A stretch of 49,018 nucleotides of DNA, taken from a virus. This document shows positions 5,712 to 36,134 of this stretch, one piece after another. Below the pieces are notes generated by a model. The model saw only the letters and a program-made list of their open reading frames with translations, did no database searches and was not told where the DNA came from. The number at the start of each line of letters is the position of its first letter. The stretch's first letter is position 1. Where the stretch lies: the IMG/VR virus record IMGVR_UViG_3300035070_003059, positions 1 to 49,018 of that record; one strand, given 5' to 3'. A program made the translations under genes and the position numbers.

Positions 5712-6526
5712 ACTTGCCTCTGTACCGCTCTTAGTATCGCCTCAGCCCGCTTGTCGGCCGTATCCATGCGCCGCTTAACGCTGTTGGCCCATTCCATGCC
5801 AGGACGCCCGCCCCACAGCAGACCGGCGATCATGCCGTTGCCTTTTTCCGGCGGCGTGTCCAAGTTCTTTTCATGCCGTGCAAAGAAGGCGACCATCTGG
5901 CGGATGGTGTCAAGGCTTACTGCTTTACCGCTGGCCAGCGTCGTGGCACGGGCTACGCCTGAACCGATCCCCTGTTCTCCTGCCTCGTTGGTATCAAGTC
6001 CGCCACGGCCGTACTTGCGGCGCAGCATGAGGCCACGCATGGCGGCTTTTTGAACCGCTTCCGGCGGCGTGAAGTCAATCCCTTGATATTTCACCGGTAC
6101 GGCCTCTTGTGTTGATTCTGGCTCCGTAAACGCTTCCCCAAGAGATACCCGACAAATGGCGATTGCCGCGCTCATATCCTTACCCTGTGCCATGACCTTG
6201 CTCACACACCGCTTGCCCTTAGCCGATGCCCCGCGCCACGCTTCCAGGGTGGGGGCGTCTGGACCTGCCTGTATAACGGCCTCGCCCATGACACCCGCCA
6301 ACACCCCAGGAACCATGTCAGCCTTGCACTTCGCGCCTAACTCACAGGCTGCGTCGTGTACCTCTTGAATGCGTTGGGCGTCCGTGCGGCTGTTGCGCGC
6401 GCCGTATTCAACCAGCCGGGTAATCTGTTGTTCCAGCAGGCGGTCGAAGGCATTGGCTTGCCCCCGCGTTAACTGCTGCGATTTCATACGTTTTTTGAGC
6501 TTAGTGATACGGGCGTCTCGTGTCAT
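5708..6526 (-). CDS. Head-region protein with a C-terminal domain common beside prohead proteases
   Basis: A 272-residue protein. The N-terminal half is helical and charged. The C-terminal half (from DFTPPEAVQKAAMRGL to about GRPGMEWANSVKRRM) contains the 'GGL.T.EA..QGIGSG..RA..LA.G' and 'NG.IA.LLWGG..G..WA' patterns that I associate with a phage domain often fused or next to prohead proteases. The overlap with the protease-capsid gene fits this. I chose the ATG at 6526, but no clear Shine-Dalgarno site precedes it. An intrinsic terminator (6538-6575) lies only 12 bases upstream. Confidence 0.65.
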   Translation of the reverse strand: MTRDARITKLKKRMKSQQLTRGQANAFDRLLEQQITRLVEYGARNSRTDAQRIQEVHDAACELGAKCKADMVPGVLAGVMGEAVIQAGPDAPTLEAWRGASAKGKRCVSKVMAQGKDMSAAIAICRVSLGEAFTEPESTQEAVPVKYQGIDFTPPEAVQKAAMRGLMLRRKYGRGGLDTNEAGEQGIGSGVARATTLASGKAVSLDTIRQMVAFFARHEKNLDTPPEKGNGMIAGLLWGGRPGMEWANSVKRRMDTADKRAEAILRAVQRQV

Positions 6527-8264: not shown

Positions 8265-8449
8265 GCTGGTTCCTTTGTTATCTTTATGCGTTCATCGGCC
8301 GCTTCAATAAACTTTTGCAATAAATTATGTAATCGTGCGTAGTCTCGTTTGCTTATGCCCGAATATTCGGGCATAACATGATTTAGAACAGCTTGCGCGG
8401 CTCGGAATTTCGCCTTGTTACATACGTTGATATATTCAACCTCTGTCAT
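8261..8449 (-). CDS. Small hypothetical protein downstream of MuF
   Basis: A 62-residue basic helical protein (MTEVEYINVCNKAKFRAAQA start). Its start overlaps the MuF stop by four bases, and its stop overlaps the next gene likewise, so it belongs to a translationally coupled trio. Unknown function. Confidence 0.5.
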   Translation of the reverse strand: MTEVEYINVCNKAKFRAAQAVLNHVMPEYSGISKRDYARLHNLLQKFIEAADERIKITKEPA

Positions 8450-10407
8450 TGCGCCGGTTCCTTTTCCTTTTTAACCTGGCTATCCCGCCGTTCCTTCTCC
8501 GCCTCTATCTGGTCATCTAGCGGCGTTGGTATCGTGCCGATTTCGGGATGCACCGTGTAATGGCGGCAGCGGCAGTTATGGACAAATACTGTACTGCTGA
8601 TGTATAATTCATCAAACGTTTGGAGGTCATAAACATGTCCAGTAAACTCGAATTTTCTAATGCTGACAACCTGTCTAGGCTCTATCAATCCGGCAAATCG
8701 ATCAAAGATATTGCGGATATTTTCGGAGTTTCCCCAATCACCGTCAGACGGCGAATGATTAAGTGGGGGATACCAATCAGGAGTCACAAGGAATCCCAAA
8801 AGGTCAGATGGGACAATGCGCCGGAATCTGCCAAAAAAATAATGGCTGATGTTGCCAAGAGCAATAAAATATTTATCCCAAATCTTGACTTTATTATTGA
8901 ACGATATATCGCTGGCGAGTCCGAATTTAGACTTGCCAAAGAGATTGGAGTTTCTCGCGCCGCGCTCCGATCTCGTTTCGTTGAACGTGGCGTGACCATC
9001 AGAAACGGAAGCGATGCCAACAGGGAGAGAATGAAGCGGCTCTCTCCCGAAGATCGTAAGGAACTTGCTAAGGCGGCGCACGATAAAATTCGCGGCTCTA
9101 AGCGTAGCAAGGCTGAGTTGATCCGTCGGGCCGTCAAAAGGCAGGAAACGCTTCAATACCAATCCGAAGCGGAAAAAGTTCTCATTCAACTTCTTAGAGA
9201 CAGGGGGGTATTGGGGATCGTGCCACAAAAGGCTATCGGGCCATACAATATCGACATTGCCATCGAGGGACAATCCATCGCCGTGGAAGTCATGGGGCAT
9301 AGCCGAGCGAGACAGGCTCCGACTCTTAGCGGATACAAAAAGAGAACGCCATACCTCCTCGATCTTGGTTGGGATGTGATAATTGTACGGGTCGATGGCA
9401 CTCGCTATTTCTTGACCGAAGCGGCTGCTGATTACATAGTCTCCCACATTCAAGAGTCCAGCGGCAATAAATCCGCGCGGGGTCAATACCGGGTGATTAG
9501 GGGTAATGGTGAGCTTGTGGCCGTTAGATATGGTCAACTCGAATACTGGACCTGAGTAATGAGAGCGGCTTGCCGCCATTAGTTTTGGTGCGAAAACCTC
9601 ATTGTCTGGCAATATACAATTAATCGTATTCTTTGCGCTGCCTGCCGGGTCTCGCGGGAATGCCAGCTCCTCCCCGCCTACGGTGAACTTATCATTGACC
9701 CCTACGATCTGACCATGTGCCGACAGGTGAGCATTGCGCGTCCTAAAATCGCCCGTACTCATCCACGCCTTTTGCAGCTCTGGAAACTCTTGCAGGCTGG
9801 TTTCCATCTGCGACTGCGTGGCCACGCTAAAGGCGCGGTTGGTTTCCGTCCGTACTATCGTCTCCGCCCTTGACGCAATGCCGCCCACAATCTTGCGCCC
9901 ACCTTGCACCCCTAAGATGTCTGTGACTTTTTGCATGGCTTGATACGGCGTCAGCGCACCCAGGCCCACGCGCCCGATCTCGCTGCTTATCAGCTTGATA
10001 ACGTCGCCTGTAAGCCCTTTGATGAGGTCGGCGCTGTAATCCATCAGTACATTGATTTGCGCCACGCTGGAGCGGAAAAACGCGCCTTCTATGCTGGCTG
10101 CTATCAACGGCTCGACCACCATCTCGACGCCATCGGTTACGGCCGTTTGCAATGCGCCGTTCTGCATGGTGACGAGTTGACGGCGTAGCGTCTCGGTCTG
10201 GTTTTCGATGTTGGCTTTAATTTCACCCAGGGCGAATGAGGCAAAATAACTATCATCCGGCACGCTGGACAGGTAGCCGATAACGTCCCGGCGGTACTGT
10301 TCAAGGAAGGCCACCATCTGCTTGACGGTGGCTTCTTCCATCGTTTCAAACCGCTTTATGACGCGGTTCATTGCGGCGGCATACTGCCGTTGTTTAGCTG
10401 TTGCCAT
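8446..10407 (-). CDS. MuF-type phage head morphogenesis protein interrupted by an intein
   Basis: A 653-residue precursor. Residues 1-263 and 612-653 form a MuF-type minor head protein (N-terminal helices, then RAETIVRTETNRAF and GDFRTRNAHLSAHGQIVG, ending at the NCRC motif), which is built into the head near the portal. Residues 264-611 are an intein with Cys264 as first residue, a block B with the TPNH signature, a block F (GHVYDLQTFDELYIS) and a terminal VFVHN, followed by Cys612. Splicing would give a 305-residue MuF with an intact N-CRCRH junction. The gene overlaps the portal gene by 14 bases. The middle of the intein is antisense to a nuclease gene. Confidence 0.9.
   Translation of the reverse strand: MATAKQRQYAAAMNRVIKRFETMEEATVKQMVAFLEQYRRDVIGYLSSVPDDSYFASFALGEIKANIENQTETLRRQLVTMQNGALQTAVTDGVEMVVEPLIAASIEGAFFRSSVAQINVLMDYSADLIKGLTGDVIKLISSEIGRVGLGALTPYQAMQKVTDILGVQGGRKIVGGIASRAETIVRTETNRAFSVATQSQMETSLQEFPELQKAWMSTGDFRTRNAHLSAHGQIVGVNDKFTVGGEELAFPRDPAGSAKNTINCILPDNEVFAPKLMAASRSHYSGPVFELTISNGHKLTITPNHPVLTPRGFIAAGLLNVGDYVISSRFGQEIASAIDPYNYHIPTKIEEVWRSLFVSAKSRSLSRSAMPHDFHGDGLSLDGNVDIVWPDSLLWHDPQYPPVSKKLNENFFRFGLVLKRFLPFDGPTDQLSLATLRAANFIVRRLSKFLTIFGREPLHSLPVGIASVSDGHATFNETRSERGARNSNLFGKSKFGLASDISFNNKVKIWDKYFIALGNISHYFFGRFRRIVPSDLLGFLVTPDWYPPLNHSPSDGDWGNSENIRNIFDRFAGLIEPRQVVSIRKFEFTGHVYDLQTFDELYISSTVFVHNCRCRHYTVHPEIGTIPTPLDDQIEAEKERRDSQVKKEKEPAQ
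8579..8635 (+). promoter_or_regulatory. Promoter and RBS of the antisense nuclease gene
   Basis: TGGACA (8579-8584), an 18-base spacer and TATAAT (8603-8608) form a near-consensus sigma70 promoter. It lies entirely inside the last 34 bases or so of the intein coding sequence (opposite strand). The predicted start near 8615 falls in a perfect palindrome CAAACGTTTG (8613-8622), followed by GGAGG (8622-8626) and the ATG at 8635. The palindrome could be an autoregulatory operator. Confidence 0.7.
8635..9555 (+). CDS. Antisense-encoded homing endonuclease candidate (HTH-HTH-Vsr/DUF559-like nuclease)
   Basis: A 306-residue protein encoded wholly inside the intein DNA, on the other strand. HTH1 is near residues 20-50 (KDIADIFGVSPITVRRR); HTH2 is near 85-123 (FRLAKEIGVSRAALRSRF). 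A C-terminal PD-(D/E)XK core follows: SEAEKVLIQLL, Asp207 in NIDIAIEG, Glu218 in IAVEVMGHS, then LDLGWDVIIVRVD. This is the pattern of Vsr/DUF559-type nucleases, a fold also used by EDxHD homing enzymes. The start is the ATG at 8635, with GGAGG 8 bases upstream and a TATAAT further up. The precise family is inference; two-strand coding over 307 codons plus initiation signals argues against chance. Confidence 0.85.
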   Translation: MSSKLEFSNADNLSRLYQSGKSIKDIADIFGVSPITVRRRMIKWGIPIRSHKESQKVRWDNAPESAKKIMADVAKSNKIFIPNLDFIIERYIAGESEFRLAKEIGVSRAALRSRFVERGVTIRNGSDANRERMKRLSPEDRKELAKAAHDKIRGSKRSKAELIRRAVKRQETLQYQSEAEKVLIQLLRDRGVLGIVPQKAIGPYNIDIAIEGQSIAVEVMGHSRARQAPTLSGYKKRTPYLLDLGWDVIIVRVDGTRYFLTEAAADYIVSHIQESSGNKSARGQYRVIRGNGELVAVRYGQLEYWT

Positions 10408-25319: not shown

Positions 25320-25352
25320 AAAAAAAACCGCTGCTATCTACTGGCTAATAGC
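25320..25352 (-). terminator. Terminator after the HTH-nuclease gene
   Basis: Minus strand: a GCTAT / ATAGC hairpin overlapping the stop codon of the nuclease gene, five more bases, then eight T (25327-25320). The stem is short, so termination may be partial. It marks the downstream edge of the AT-rich cassette. Confidence 0.5.
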
Positions 25353-26026
25353 CAATAGGCATTATGGTATTTTAGATATTTACTAATTTCTGGGCGCTTT
25401 GTCGGATAACAAAATTGAATCTTTTGCACATGTTCTGGAATAATAATTGAAGGTATGACAAAAACATCTTTATTACCAGTAATGCAGAAGTAATAATCAC
25501 AATCTCGCCTTTTATCCACACCTATATGAAATTTCCATTGAGGGGAGATCAAGCGCCCATCAAGAGAGGGTGCAATCTTTTTTGATAAACCAGCCTTTAC
25601 ATCAACACGGTTTCCATCAACAAGTAAATCAAATGGGTGATTATAGGGCATCGCCCTAACGTCAAACCCCATAGTTTCTAAGTGAGCTATGGCCCAATTC
25701 TCCCATTTTGTTCCAACCTTTCTGCTATTGTTTGGCTTGCCATCAACCTTATATCTTTGCCCAGCCCGTATTTTGCCAACCGTTCTGATAGCTAAGTTCA
25801 ATTTATTAGCCAGCTGGCTGTTGGTAAGGAGTGGATTGCCCCGAATATAATTGTGCAAGTCCTCAGTTTTCTTGTAATTCTCTAGCCAACCAGTATTACC
25901 TATAACCTTCCAAACAGATTGTTTAGTGATACCATATTTATCACCAATCTCTTGCAGGGTTAGCCCATGTTCCCTCAGCGCTATCATGTCTCGCTTTCTT
26001 TCTTCTCTCTGTTTTTTGCTTGCCAT
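25334..26026 (-). CDS. HTH plus PD-(D/E)XK nuclease, probable free-standing homing endonuclease
   Basis: A 230-residue protein. HTH-like segments are near residues 20-45 (LTLQEIGDKYGITKQSVWKV) and 66-90 (LLTNSQLANKLNLAIRTVGK). The nuclease core has Glu109 (KWENWAIAHLETMG), Asp133 (HPFDLLVDG) and VDVK with Lys144: an E...D...D-x-K set. The gene is visibly more AT-rich than its neighbours, suggesting recent transfer. The start at 26026 avoids the longer frame that runs back into the leader hairpin. It has its own promoter and structured leader. Confidence 0.8.
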   Translation of the reverse strand: MASKKQREERKRDMIALREHGLTLQEIGDKYGITKQSVWKVIGNTGWLENYKKTEDLHNYIRGNPLLTNSQLANKLNLAIRTVGKIRAGQRYKVDGKPNNSRKVGTKWENWAIAHLETMGFDVRAMPYNHPFDLLVDGNRVDVKAGLSKKIAPSLDGRLISPQWKFHIGVDKRRDCDYYFCITGNKDVFVIPSIIIPEHVQKIQFCYPTKRPEISKYLKYHNAYWLLASR

Positions 26027-26033
26027 AAGATAC

Positions 26034-26161
26034 AAAAAAACTCCTAAACTTTGACTAAGTGGTTTGTGGCTTGAGTGGGGTATTGCGCAAATATGGCAGA
26101 TGCGCCTACATCCAACAAACCACCTAGTCAAAGGCTAGGAGCCTGATTACCGCCACTCAAG
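26034..26161 (-). promoter_or_regulatory. Pseudoknot-type leader with T7 before the HTH-nuclease gene
   Basis: Minus strand order: A (26161-26153, CTTGAGTGG), B (26141-26116), A' (26078-26070), B' (26066-26041), then seven T (26040-26034), 7 bases before the ATG. A/A' match 9 of 9; B/B' match 23 of 26. The pairs interleave, as in the HNH leader. B/B' plus T7 is a strong intrinsic terminator, so the gene is off unless the terminator is bypassed or melted. Confidence 0.7.
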
Positions 26162-30545: not shown

Positions 30546-30791
30546 TTACCCCTCGTTTGGAGAGGCGGCCGGAATTGCTATTTCGTAAATATCGCCTAAA
30601 CGGATATTGCGCACCTCGTCAACTGCCCAGCCAGCAGCCAGCAACACGGAAGCAACCGTGTCTGGCTTGGGGGCATTGTACGCCAGAATGCCGCTTAGGG
30701 ATTGCGGAGAAACGCCCATTATCTGAGCAACTTCTTTTTGACTCTTGCCGCTCTTTAATATTTCTTGTTTTAGGAATAGTCTAGTATTCAT
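30546..30791 (-). CDS. CI-like helix-turn-helix repressor
   Basis: An 81-residue XRE-type protein: helix-turn-helix KSQKEVAQIMGVSPQSLSGI near residues 16-35. It faces the plus-strand early operon. The ATG at 30791 lies about 7 bases after a minus-strand -10 (TATCAT), so the mRNA is probably leaderless, as for lambda cI. It is short for a repressor and lacks a cleavable C-terminal domain. The likely operator is the palindrome at 30823-30838. Confidence 0.7.
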   Translation of the reverse strand: MNTRLFLKQEILKSGKSQKEVAQIMGVSPQSLSGILAYNAPKPDTVASVLLAAGWAVDEVRNIRLGDIYEIAIPAASPNEG

Positions 30792-30797
30792 GTACCA

Positions 30798-30862
30798 ATG
30801 ATAAAGTAATTTTGTTTTTCCGTCAAGCAATTGCTTGACAACTACTAAAAAATCTTTATAAT
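30798..30862. promoter_or_regulatory. Divergent early promoters sharing one operator
   Basis: Plus promoter: TTGACA (30835-30840), 16 bases, TATAAT (30857-30862). Minus promoter: TTGACG (30826-30821), 17 bases, TATCAT (30803-30798). A perfect 16-bp palindrome TCAAGCAATTGCTTGA (30823-30838) overlaps both -35 elements. One site could thus control both directions, the hallmark of a lysis-lysogeny switch. Confidence 0.8.
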
Positions 30863-30910
30863 GGTATACATATTGATTAACCGACACACAAACCCGGCAA
30901 GGAGATCGAC

Positions 30911-31135
30911 ATGGAACACAAACAATTAGGCGTTTTCCCAATCGTAATCGAAAAAGACCGCACCCGCTTAACCATCAGCGTTGACGGCCCATACTGGTAC
31001 TCGGAGAATTTTATCAAAACTGGCAACTATGCAGGCAAATCTATTATCAGCAAATCGCCTCGTATCGGTCACGGTCGCGCTGTGAAAGCCGCCGTCGCTC
31101 ACGCCGAGTTAAACGGCTGGGTTAACCAAGCATAA
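30911..31135 (+). CDS. First gene of the rightward early operon, unknown
   Basis: A 74-residue protein (MEHKQLGVFPIVIEKDRTRL start), basic, with a beta N-terminus and helical C-terminus. AAGGAG precedes the ATG. In cro-type switches this place often holds a cro or an anti-repressor, but no HTH is evident. Unknown. Confidence 0.55.
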   Translation: MEHKQLGVFPIVIEKDRTRLTISVDGPYWYSENFIKTGNYAGKSIISKSPRIGHGRAVKAAVAHAELNGWVNQA

Positions 31136-34356: not shown

Positions 34357-34385
34357 TTGACAAGCTATACAATCTGCTATACAAT
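34357..34385 (+). promoter_or_regulatory. Promoter of the first accessory operon
   Basis: TTGACA (34357-34362), 17 bases, TACAAT (34380-34385). A direct repeat CTATACAAT (34365-34373 and 34377-34385) overlaps it and could bind a regulator. It drives the genes from 34419 to 35030. Confidence 0.75.
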
Positions 34386-34418: not shown

Positions 34419-34688
34419 ATGGTCAACCTAACAGGCAAGCAAAAACAAGATTACGAAAGATTGCTGAAATTGCAAAAACGGGCCATGTGTAGCCCGAATC
34501 AGTTGGTAAAACTTTCAGCAGGCAATTACTATTTTTATAGCAAGCTTGAAAACGAATTGCTGATAGTATCGGATGACAGTTACGAAAATGGTGGCTCTCC
34601 TTGTTGGGTGGTTCGTCAAGAAAAAGACCATAACGTTGTTAACGATTATCCTACACTTAAAGAATTCAAAAAGGACTGGGCAAAATAA
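34419..34688 (+). CDS. Accessory (moron) gene, unknown
   Basis: An 89-residue protein (MVNLTGKQKQDYERLLKLQK start). Lys-rich N-terminal helix, then a beta-type end with a Cys (GGSPCWVVRQEKDH). AGGAG precedes the ATG. More AT-rich than the core genes. Own promoter suggests expression in lysogens. Function unknown. Confidence 0.55.
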   Translation: MVNLTGKQKQDYERLLKLQKRAMCSPNQLVKLSAGNYYFYSKLENELLIVSDDSYENGGSPCWVVRQEKDHNVVNDYPTLKEFKKDWAK

Positions 34689-35795: not shown

Positions 35796-35824
35796 TTGAC
35801 AACTATGTACCAATTTGGTACAAT
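35796..35824 (+). promoter_or_regulatory. Promoter with operator palindrome, second accessory operon
   Basis: TTGACA (35796-35801), 17 bases, TACAAT (35819-35824). The spacer contains GTACCAATTTGGTAC (35807-35821), a perfect 7-base inverted repeat around one central T, placed between -35 and -10, where a repressor would block transcription. Confidence 0.8.
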
Positions 35825-35855: not shown

Positions 35856-36134
35856 ATGAAATCAACAGATTGGACACAACTTATCCCGAATCTCCCAAAG
35901 AACACTACCATTCGCAAAATGGTTCAAGACGAACTAGATGAAGGCACACAGTTTTTGGAAATGTATGAAGCTGCAATTGACAAAGCGGCCGATTATTTGA
36001 ATCGTGAATTTCAAGCAGTTCCAAAAGCTACCTGGAAAGCAGCATTAAAAAATCCAGATAATGTTGAATTCACAGACAGTCATCGCGCAGCTCGTTTTGA
36101 AGCTGCTCAAAAATGGATTGGCACGCAATGCTAA
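35856..36134 (+). CDS. Accessory gene product, unknown
   Basis: A 92-residue protein (MKSTDWTQLIPNLPKNTTIR start), helical and rich in Ala and Lys. AGGAG lies 9 bases upstream of the ATG. AT-rich, with codon use unlike the core genes. The first gene after the operator-controlled promoter. Function unknown; candidate exclusion or anti-defence protein. Confidence 0.55.
   Translation: MKSTDWTQLIPNLPKNTTIRKMVQDELDEGTQFLEMYEAAIDKAADYLNREFQAVPKATWKAALKNPDNVEFTDSHRAARFEAAQKWIGTQC

Follow-up and report, generated by a model that had tools for sequence, protein, structure and literature searches.

Does the DNA that encodes the end of an intein also serve, on its other strand, to express a separate gene? 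This question is raised by a 49,018-nucleotide (nt) stretch of viral DNA (IMG/VR record IMGVR_UViG_3300035070_003059, positions 1 to 49,018; hereafter the window), in which a MuF-like minor head gene is interrupted in frame by an intein and a second open reading frame (ORF) runs antisense to that intein. The evidence set out below makes it highly probable that this is a mobile intein whose homing endonuclease is its own, independently transcribed antisense gene and is not fused to it.

The intein and the antisense leader

The last 20 codons of the intein would form the leader of the antisense gene. In the proposed layout the -35 lies opposite block G, where other members have an extended -10, and the -10 faces the stretch that separates blocks F and G; the Shine-Dalgarno sequence (SD), opposite Asp/Asn-Leu-Gln, and the ATG, opposite a His codon, both fall in block F. 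The features concerned are as follows, a slash marking a splice junction.

8446-10407, minus strand: MuF-like minor head gene, an ORF of 653 amino acids (aa), interrupted in frame by the intein
8575-9618, minus strand: intein of 348 codons, Cys 264 to Asn 611 of the MuF ORF, TIN/CILPDNEV ... VFVHN/CRC
9493-9504, minus strand: intein block B, TPNH, opposite antisense VIRG
8579-8584, plus strand: -35-like hexamer TGGACA, one mismatch to consensus, pairing with the Phe-Val-His codons of block G
8585-8602, plus strand: promoter spacer, 18 nt
8603-8608, plus strand: -10 hexamer TATAAT, opposite Glu-Leu(TTA)-Tyr codons between blocks F and G
8613-8622, both strands: 10-base-pair (bp) palindrome CAAACGTTTG at the predicted start point, not conserved and probably due to chance
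8622-8626, plus strand: SD GGAGG, opposite the Asp-Leu-Gln codons of block F, 8 nt before the ATG
8635-8637, plus strand: start codon ATG, the reverse complement of the block F His codon CAT in GHVYDLQ
8635-9555, plus strand: antisense gene for a putative homing endonuclease of 306 aa, reaching from the His codon of block F to a little beyond block B

The host ORF matches Pfam Phage_Mu_F (6.8e-8) and Intein_splicing (3.2e-8), and in PHROG it falls under head protein/head morphogenesis. The intein junctions were taken from the translation, and matches to intein_Nterm and intein_Cterm were also found; taken alone, the window's intein scores 34.0 bits against a Pfam cut-off of 35.8. All of the class 1 intein motifs are present, namely CILPDNEV with its Cys1, TPNH in block B, GHVYDLQ in block F and VHN/C in block G. 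Sense and antisense codons coincide, with sense position 1 being antisense position 3.

Promoter, spacer, palindrome, GGAGG and ATG, as named in an original prediction made from the letters of the window, are all present base for base opposite the C-terminal codons of the intein. The last G of the palindrome is also the first base of GGAGG, and an in-frame TTG stands at 8620, upstream of the antisense ATG. The Leu codon under the -10, TTA, is rare in the MuF gene (fraction 0.07, pseudocount included).

The site at 8579 has 11 of 12 matches to the sigma70 hexamers and is the best of 10 sigma70-like sites between positions 6500 and 11500, where shuffled sequences gave 4.0 +/- 1.8. Just five sites with at least 11/12 matches occur in the whole window on both strands, and this is the only one near the head genes. 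The other four are listed here.

30835-30862, plus strand: precedes the ORF at 30911; the only 12/12 promoter of the window
34357-34385: precedes the Met at 34419
35796-35824: precedes the Met at 35856
26244-26216, minus strand: TTGACA-17-TATACT, about 190 nt before the Met at 26026

For the first three of these the -10 stands about 30-50 nt upstream of a plausible start, with positions counted from the translations, and the sigma70 consensus therefore seems fairly specific in this genome. The hexamers are the standard sigma70 consensus, which may not fit the promoters of actinobacterial or other hosts. When the same intein residues are spelled with the codon usage of this gene, a match of at least 11/12 arises with P=0.0045, and the 6-nt SD match of the window with P=0.036.

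A contrary explanation is that the promoter-like and SD-like words arise by chance from the intein residues and codon bias, and that the antisense gene, if real, is expressed from elsewhere or never. The mismatch in the window's -35 and the 18-bp spacer tell in its favour and against a dedicated promoter. We come back to it after describing the relatives.

Relatives of the antisense gene

The antisense protein, used as a query, matched 132 of 50,697 records of a phage collection, of which 24 were retrieved. In 22 of these the gene is contained in, and antisense to, a single annotated ORF, most often labelled MuF or head morphogenesis, and in the other two (L018 and L024) the relative is free-standing and annotated. 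The 22 antisense loci belong to phages or prophages of Gordonia, Mycobacterium, Rhodococcus, Vibrio, Idiomarinaceae, Haemophilus/Aggregatibacter, Klebsiella, Salmonella, Escherichia, Cronobacter, Edwardsiella, Pseudomonas and Helicobacter, plus one unassigned virus (L020); among them, PK2 alone has an annotated coding sequence across the full antisense frame. A scan of viral contigs gave no match with the single antisense protein, and a profile of 21 antisense proteins was too divergent; a four-sequence alignment succeeded and found 282 relatives, 80 of which were used. The scan of genome contigs gave one relative only (L107), so bacterial prophages are thinly sampled. Relatives in the same place and phase occur in phages of Proteobacteria, Actinobacteria, Campylobacterota and Chloroflexota. 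A further relative, outside the set analysed and on a plasmid of Candidatus Promineifilum breve (Chloroflexota), has TATAAT in the window's register, an SD and an ATG, with a weak -35.

One of the free-standing relatives, in Acinetobacter phage P1068 (L018, 1806-3469), is convergent with an intein-less MuF gene, possibly a precursor or a collaborating state.

Selection on the leader signals

Intein C-ends could be placed in 100 of 106 loci. Excluded were the two free-standing relatives and then L049, L078, L090 and L091, which had no usable C-end; the C-end of L022 was set by hand. Removal of duplicates and of leaders within 6 of 60 differences left 81 leaders, each of which was recoded 2000 times with synonyms drawn from the codon usage of its own gene to give the expected counts. 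A strict promoter was defined as at least 11/12 sigma70 matches or a perfect extended -10 (TGnTATAAT).

Every promoter measure exceeds expectation. Exact TATAAT is seen in 33 leaders (4.7 expected), promoters of at least 10/12 in 19 (2.1 expected) and of at least 11/12 in 15 (0.51 expected), and perfect TGnTATAAT in 16 (0.80 expected), so that 31 of the 81 leaders hold a strict promoter where 1.24 are expected. By comparison, none of 480 antisense extein windows of the same loci has one (expected 0.0, standard deviation 0.06). Control inteins were sought in 299 genomes; 20 loci were taken and 17 gave a C-end, none of the 17 having either a strict promoter or TATAAT. One control (L125) has the His/ATG feature and a 287-codon antisense frame and was removed, leaving 16 ordinary controls, mostly of similar type.

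The promoters fall into two classes. In class 1 (15 leaders, at least 11/12) both -35 and -10 lie inside the leader, and six leaders are perfect 12/12 (L037, L041, L047, L053, L073 and L081). Class 2 (16 leaders) has the extended -10, mostly opposite Gly-Ile-Ile-x-His-Asn. The 23 leaders with at least 9/12 matches use three registers only: offset 5 with 17 bp (12 leaders), offset 4 with 18 bp (nine, including the window) and offset 4 with 16 bp (two). The codons under the -10 show the same bias when the leaders are chosen without reference to promoter score: at the class 1 place, TTA encodes the Leu of Leu-Tyr in 12 of 18 cases (1.37 expected), and at the class 2 place ATA encodes the Ile in 25 of 43 (7.64 expected). 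Conservation at individual wobble positions in the promoter-bearing leaders was not used, being circular, as these leaders had been picked for their promoters.

The translation signals behave likewise. Among the 74 leaders whose start codon lies at offset 60, 63 or 66, SD matches of at least 6 nt are found in 34 (6.8 expected), of at least 5 nt in 49 (12.3 expected) and of at least 4 nt in 68 (40.5 expected). The block F His is encoded by CAT, giving ATG on the antisense strand, in 59 of the 70 loci that have His there (27.2 expected). Promoter, SD and ATG are thus far above synonymous expectation, which argues that they are selected beyond what the intein residues need; conservation of this kind was one of the checks that the original prediction had put forward.

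Several observations weigh on the other side, in addition to the imperfect -35 and spacer of the window. The strict promoter is missing from 50 of the 81 leaders, above all from GC-rich ones: it is absent from 20 of 22 leaders in the highest GC bin (0.7), and the lower bins lack it in 4 of 11, 9 of 16 and 17 of 32. In L023, moreover, the usual place holds no start codon. The original prediction had named loss of the -10 or SD from homologues with an intact antisense frame as evidence against it; the SD is mostly kept, with 6 of 74 leaders lacking a 4-nt match, and it is for the strict promoter that such losses are common. The 81 loci also share ancestry and so are not independent trials. With clustering at 50% protein identity, a strict promoter is found in 20 of 53 clusters (1.08 expected by weight); single linkage at 40% shrinks the excess to 5 of 14 clusters, or 3.93 against 0.70 by weight. 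A quick tree requires no fewer than 18 changes of promoter class label (5 for class 1 and 13 for class 2), so the signals are not a single inherited accident. Controls for shared ancestry weaken the promoter excess but do not remove it. Given this excess, its absence from the extein windows, the choice of TTA and ATA precisely at the -10 and the surplus of SD and ATG, we regard coincidental spelling by the intein codons as very unlikely.

The same bases might instead be kept as a binding half-site for the endonuclease, or for recombination. Homing nucleases bind around their insertion sites, and the leader adjoins such a site. The first base of the -35 lies 4 bases into the intein, beside that half of the presumed homing site which belongs to the C-extein. 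Binding, however, would not need sigma70 -35/-10 pairs or TGnTATAAT in registers that differ among members, and the spacing of the SD suits translation. A binding role in place of a promoter is, on these grounds, extremely unlikely, and selection for expression of the antisense gene is the reading we retain.

The 10-bp palindrome, considered as an operator, was rejected. Any such palindrome is held by 3 of the 81 leaders, where about 4 are expected, and the window alone has one at this place. The suggestion that it could mediate autoregulation of the antisense gene accordingly finds no support. It is conceivable that endonuclease bound to the C-extein half-site could repress its own promoter, an idea to which the palindrome lends nothing.

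The antisense reading frame and its protein

None of the 106 loci has an inner stop in the antisense frame. In 103 of them the codon-aligned sense frame stays open for 831 nt or more, the exceptions being L018, L024 and L091. Long antisense frames might be a shadow of the sense strand, with selection acting on the intein only and the likeness of the antisense proteins a by-product of codon-aligned pairing. Indeed, four of the 16 ordinary control inteins (L117, L118, L120 and L123) hold 281-775 open codons in this phase, with neither the block F ATG nor a promoter, so open antisense frames alone prove nothing; the conservation of the sense motifs FHGDG and TPNH is also in keeping with selection on the intein.

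The pattern of substitution points the other way. In the overlap, eight of nine related phage pairs have more differences at sense position 1, which is the third position of the antisense codon, than at position 3 (the exception has 7 differences in all), whereas in the N-terminal flank position 3 differs most in all nine. Antisense amino-acid differences are fewer than sense differences in seven of the nine pairs. Over the same codons of a 38-sequence alignment (the window and 37 of the 80 contig loci), identity is 35.7% for the antisense protein against 27.2% for the sense protein, the antisense being higher in 699 of 703 pairs. The antisense frame is thus the more conserved and varies most at its own third positions. 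Together with the free-standing relatives (L018, L024 and L091) and the nuclease and helix-turn-helix (HTH) matches and confident fold described next, this leaves the shadow explanation largely refuted and scarcely credible.

The antisense protein consists of three recognisable parts, listed below with a sense motif that faces part of the nuclease domain.

8662-8763, plus strand: first HTH, residues about 10-43, from Pfam HTH_7 (1.6e-8) and model helices
8884-8985, plus strand: second HTH, residues about 84-117, from model helices
9157-9504, plus strand: Vsr-like nuclease domain, residues about 175-290, from MTES_1575 in relatives and a structure match
9274-9288, minus strand: sense motif FHGDG, opposite antisense strand AVE, its F codon pairing with E218

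In the window itself the matches to MTES_1575 and DUF559 lie below the curated Pfam cut-offs; MTES_1575 is found in 33 of the 38 members at E <= 0.01. A phmmer search of the PDB with the single antisense protein gave no useful match. The AlphaFold2 model built on the 38-row alignment is confident (predicted local distance difference test, pLDDT, 88.7) and shows two HTH units and an alpha/beta domain. Among solved folds Vsr comes closest (Z 10.9 over 116 residues, 2.8 A), followed by a Neisseria endonuclease-like protein (Z 10.4) and by I-Bth0305I, a homing endonuclease, with its catalytic domain (Z 10.3); Foldseek gives E values of 2.4e-3 to 7.1e-3 for Vsr and I-Bth0305I. Mitoribosomal chains come next at Z 8.8, which leaves the Vsr-type assignment a moderate margin. 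All 38 aligned proteins share E180, D207 and E218, which would be the catalytic residues.

The neighbouring V217 is GTG in all 38, so the sense His of FHGDG is 100% conserved; this position seems to be selected on the sense strand too.

The intein was modelled with AlphaFold2 from 41 sequences. Its two Hint halves (1-66 and 311-348) are confident, at about 90 or more, and the stretch from about 129 to 296 is mostly below pLDDT 50. The closest solved structure is the Mtu RecA mini-intein (Foldseek E 2.2e-4), with PI-PfuI and TliVMA also among the matches. On these models, the middle of the intein is predicted to fold on the antisense strand only.

Open frames, substitution pattern, confident nuclease fold and the excess of promoter, SD and ATG strongly support a real antisense gene, and with it the original prediction of a dedicated promoter and ribosome site for it. 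One could accept the promoter as real and give it another main role, the tuning of MuF expression by antisense RNA, with the protein secondary, since RNA made from it would be complementary to MuF mRNA throughout. The SD, the ATG and the purifying selection on the antisense protein all indicate that the protein matters, and such an RNA-first role is accordingly most improbable beside expression of an endonuclease.

Host sites and probable mobility

The C-extein begins with CRC in 52 of the 81 loci and with CKC in five, the same MuF site. Among 56 host proteins scanned, Intein_splicing is found in 53, Phage_Mu_F in 34, Phage_min_cap2 in five, VG15 in two and a dCMP deaminase family in one. A query with the MuF protein of LSPA1 gave 451 records, 58 of them covering at least 80%, and three Salmonella phages among the matches listed align to it in two pieces, without the intein. 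In phage ER2 the frame runs from PPAHPN straight to CRSTTAPV, the exact LSPA1 junction, and is a precise intein-less allele; between LSPA1 and ER2, a comparison made in a relative and not in the window itself, removal of the intein is clean, in frame and at the same N/C site. As judged from these sequences, presence and absence at an identical site is what homing inteins look like.

Two further placements were seen. In virus Rctr197k (L020, 616-1968) an antisense-gene intein lies in a dCMP deaminase-like protein annotated as head morphogenesis protein, and in two related Guernseyvirinae (L022, 1224-3194, and L012, 1593-3452) such inteins occupy two different sites of the same head gene.

A model for the element

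From the anatomy, conservation, codon selection and predicted folds, and from the empty site of a relative, we infer a course of transcription, translation, splicing, DNA cutting, homing and their timing. Transcription of the endonuclease gene would start in the leader, by the sigma70 RNA polymerase of the host and independently of the head operon, and the sense strand would give rise to a MuF precursor from which the intein is spliced. MuF genes that lack the intein would be cleaved by the endonuclease at the conserved ..N/C[RK]C site, and during repair the intein would be copied along with the antisense gene hidden in it. As the antisense gene lies opposite MuF, its transcription would oppose the MuF message, as originally predicted from this geometry; separate timing of expression of the two strands would ease collision or antisense pairing.

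The evidence is evenly balanced on the wider proposal, that these elements form a distinct structural class of homing element in tailed phages, with a sigma70-driven early endonuclease, with gene ends locked by blocks F/G and B, and with the essential motifs of either strand embedded in the other. If it holds, the endonuclease would be made ahead of any transcription of the head operon from the other strand, and cutting would have a timing separate from splicing. Because promoter, SD and start face blocks F and G, and the end of the enzyme faces block B, neither end of the endonuclease gene could decay without harm to splicing.

Other features of the window

A second HTH protein (25334-26131, minus strand, Met at about 26026; HTH_23 and HTH_24) is free-standing, with a possible nuclease-like C-terminal part, and the site at 26244-26216 is on its own strand. 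At 30546-31135 there is a divergent pair, a repressor-like HTH ORF on the minus strand with a 10/12 promoter (30826-30798) and the plus-strand ORF at 30911; from its sequence, it looks like a lysogeny switch.

Comparison with known systems

Inteins are the textbook case of an endonuclease and a splicing domain in one polypeptide, the fused enzyme being of the LAGLIDADG or HNH type. The present element shares with such inteins the Hint domain, Cys1, block B TxxH, block F, HN/C, a conserved site in the host protein and the existence of intein-less alleles. It differs in that the endonuclease is a separate gene on the opposite strand, with its own promoter, SD and start. Its enzyme is predicted to share a Vsr-type fold with Vsr and with I-Bth0305I, a homing endonuclease by its PDB title, at identities of only 21% and 15%, respectively, and unlike them has N-terminal tandem HTH units and is encoded antisense in an intein.

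The nearest parallels in gene arrangement are found elsewhere. As described in the portions of PMC9548176 consulted, group I introns of nuclear ribosomal DNA carry antisense homing endonuclease genes expressed from a separate internal promoter, for which spatial and probably temporal separation has been proposed. These resemble the present case in having an endonuclease opposite the host gene, an internal promoter and the same problem of antisense interference; they differ in being eukaryotic RNA introns with His-Cys enzymes and no sense protein frame, whereas here both strands encode protein in the same codons. The T4 intron endonucleases have their own promoters, and autorepression has been shown for I-TevI (extracts of PMC2988022); there too the endonuclease promoter is embedded in the host transcription unit, but the I-TevI gene has the same orientation as its host gene. 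The endonucleases of the yeast WHO elements are transcribed independently of their target gene, and some are oppositely oriented; on the account given in part of PMC7282813, however, they involve no splicing and their target is functional without them, whereas the gene here is nested in a splicing-type intein.

No account of antisense endonucleases inside inteins turned up in a search of the open-access literature, with subscription papers outside its scope, though this does not prove that none exists. Antisense endonuclease genes are already known in group I introns. Splicing and endonuclease would here be uncoupled onto opposite strands yet locked together by shared codons, and a conserved nuclease gene has mostly escaped annotation. 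The family also offers a system for the study of double-strand coding, with hundreds of natural sequences in which promoter, SD, start, nuclease and splicing motifs share bases. Finally, the arrangement may explain phage head-gene inteins that apparently have no endonuclease, such as the one reported, in the part of PMC517821 consulted, from a head gene of a Mu-like prophage of Methylococcus capsulatus.

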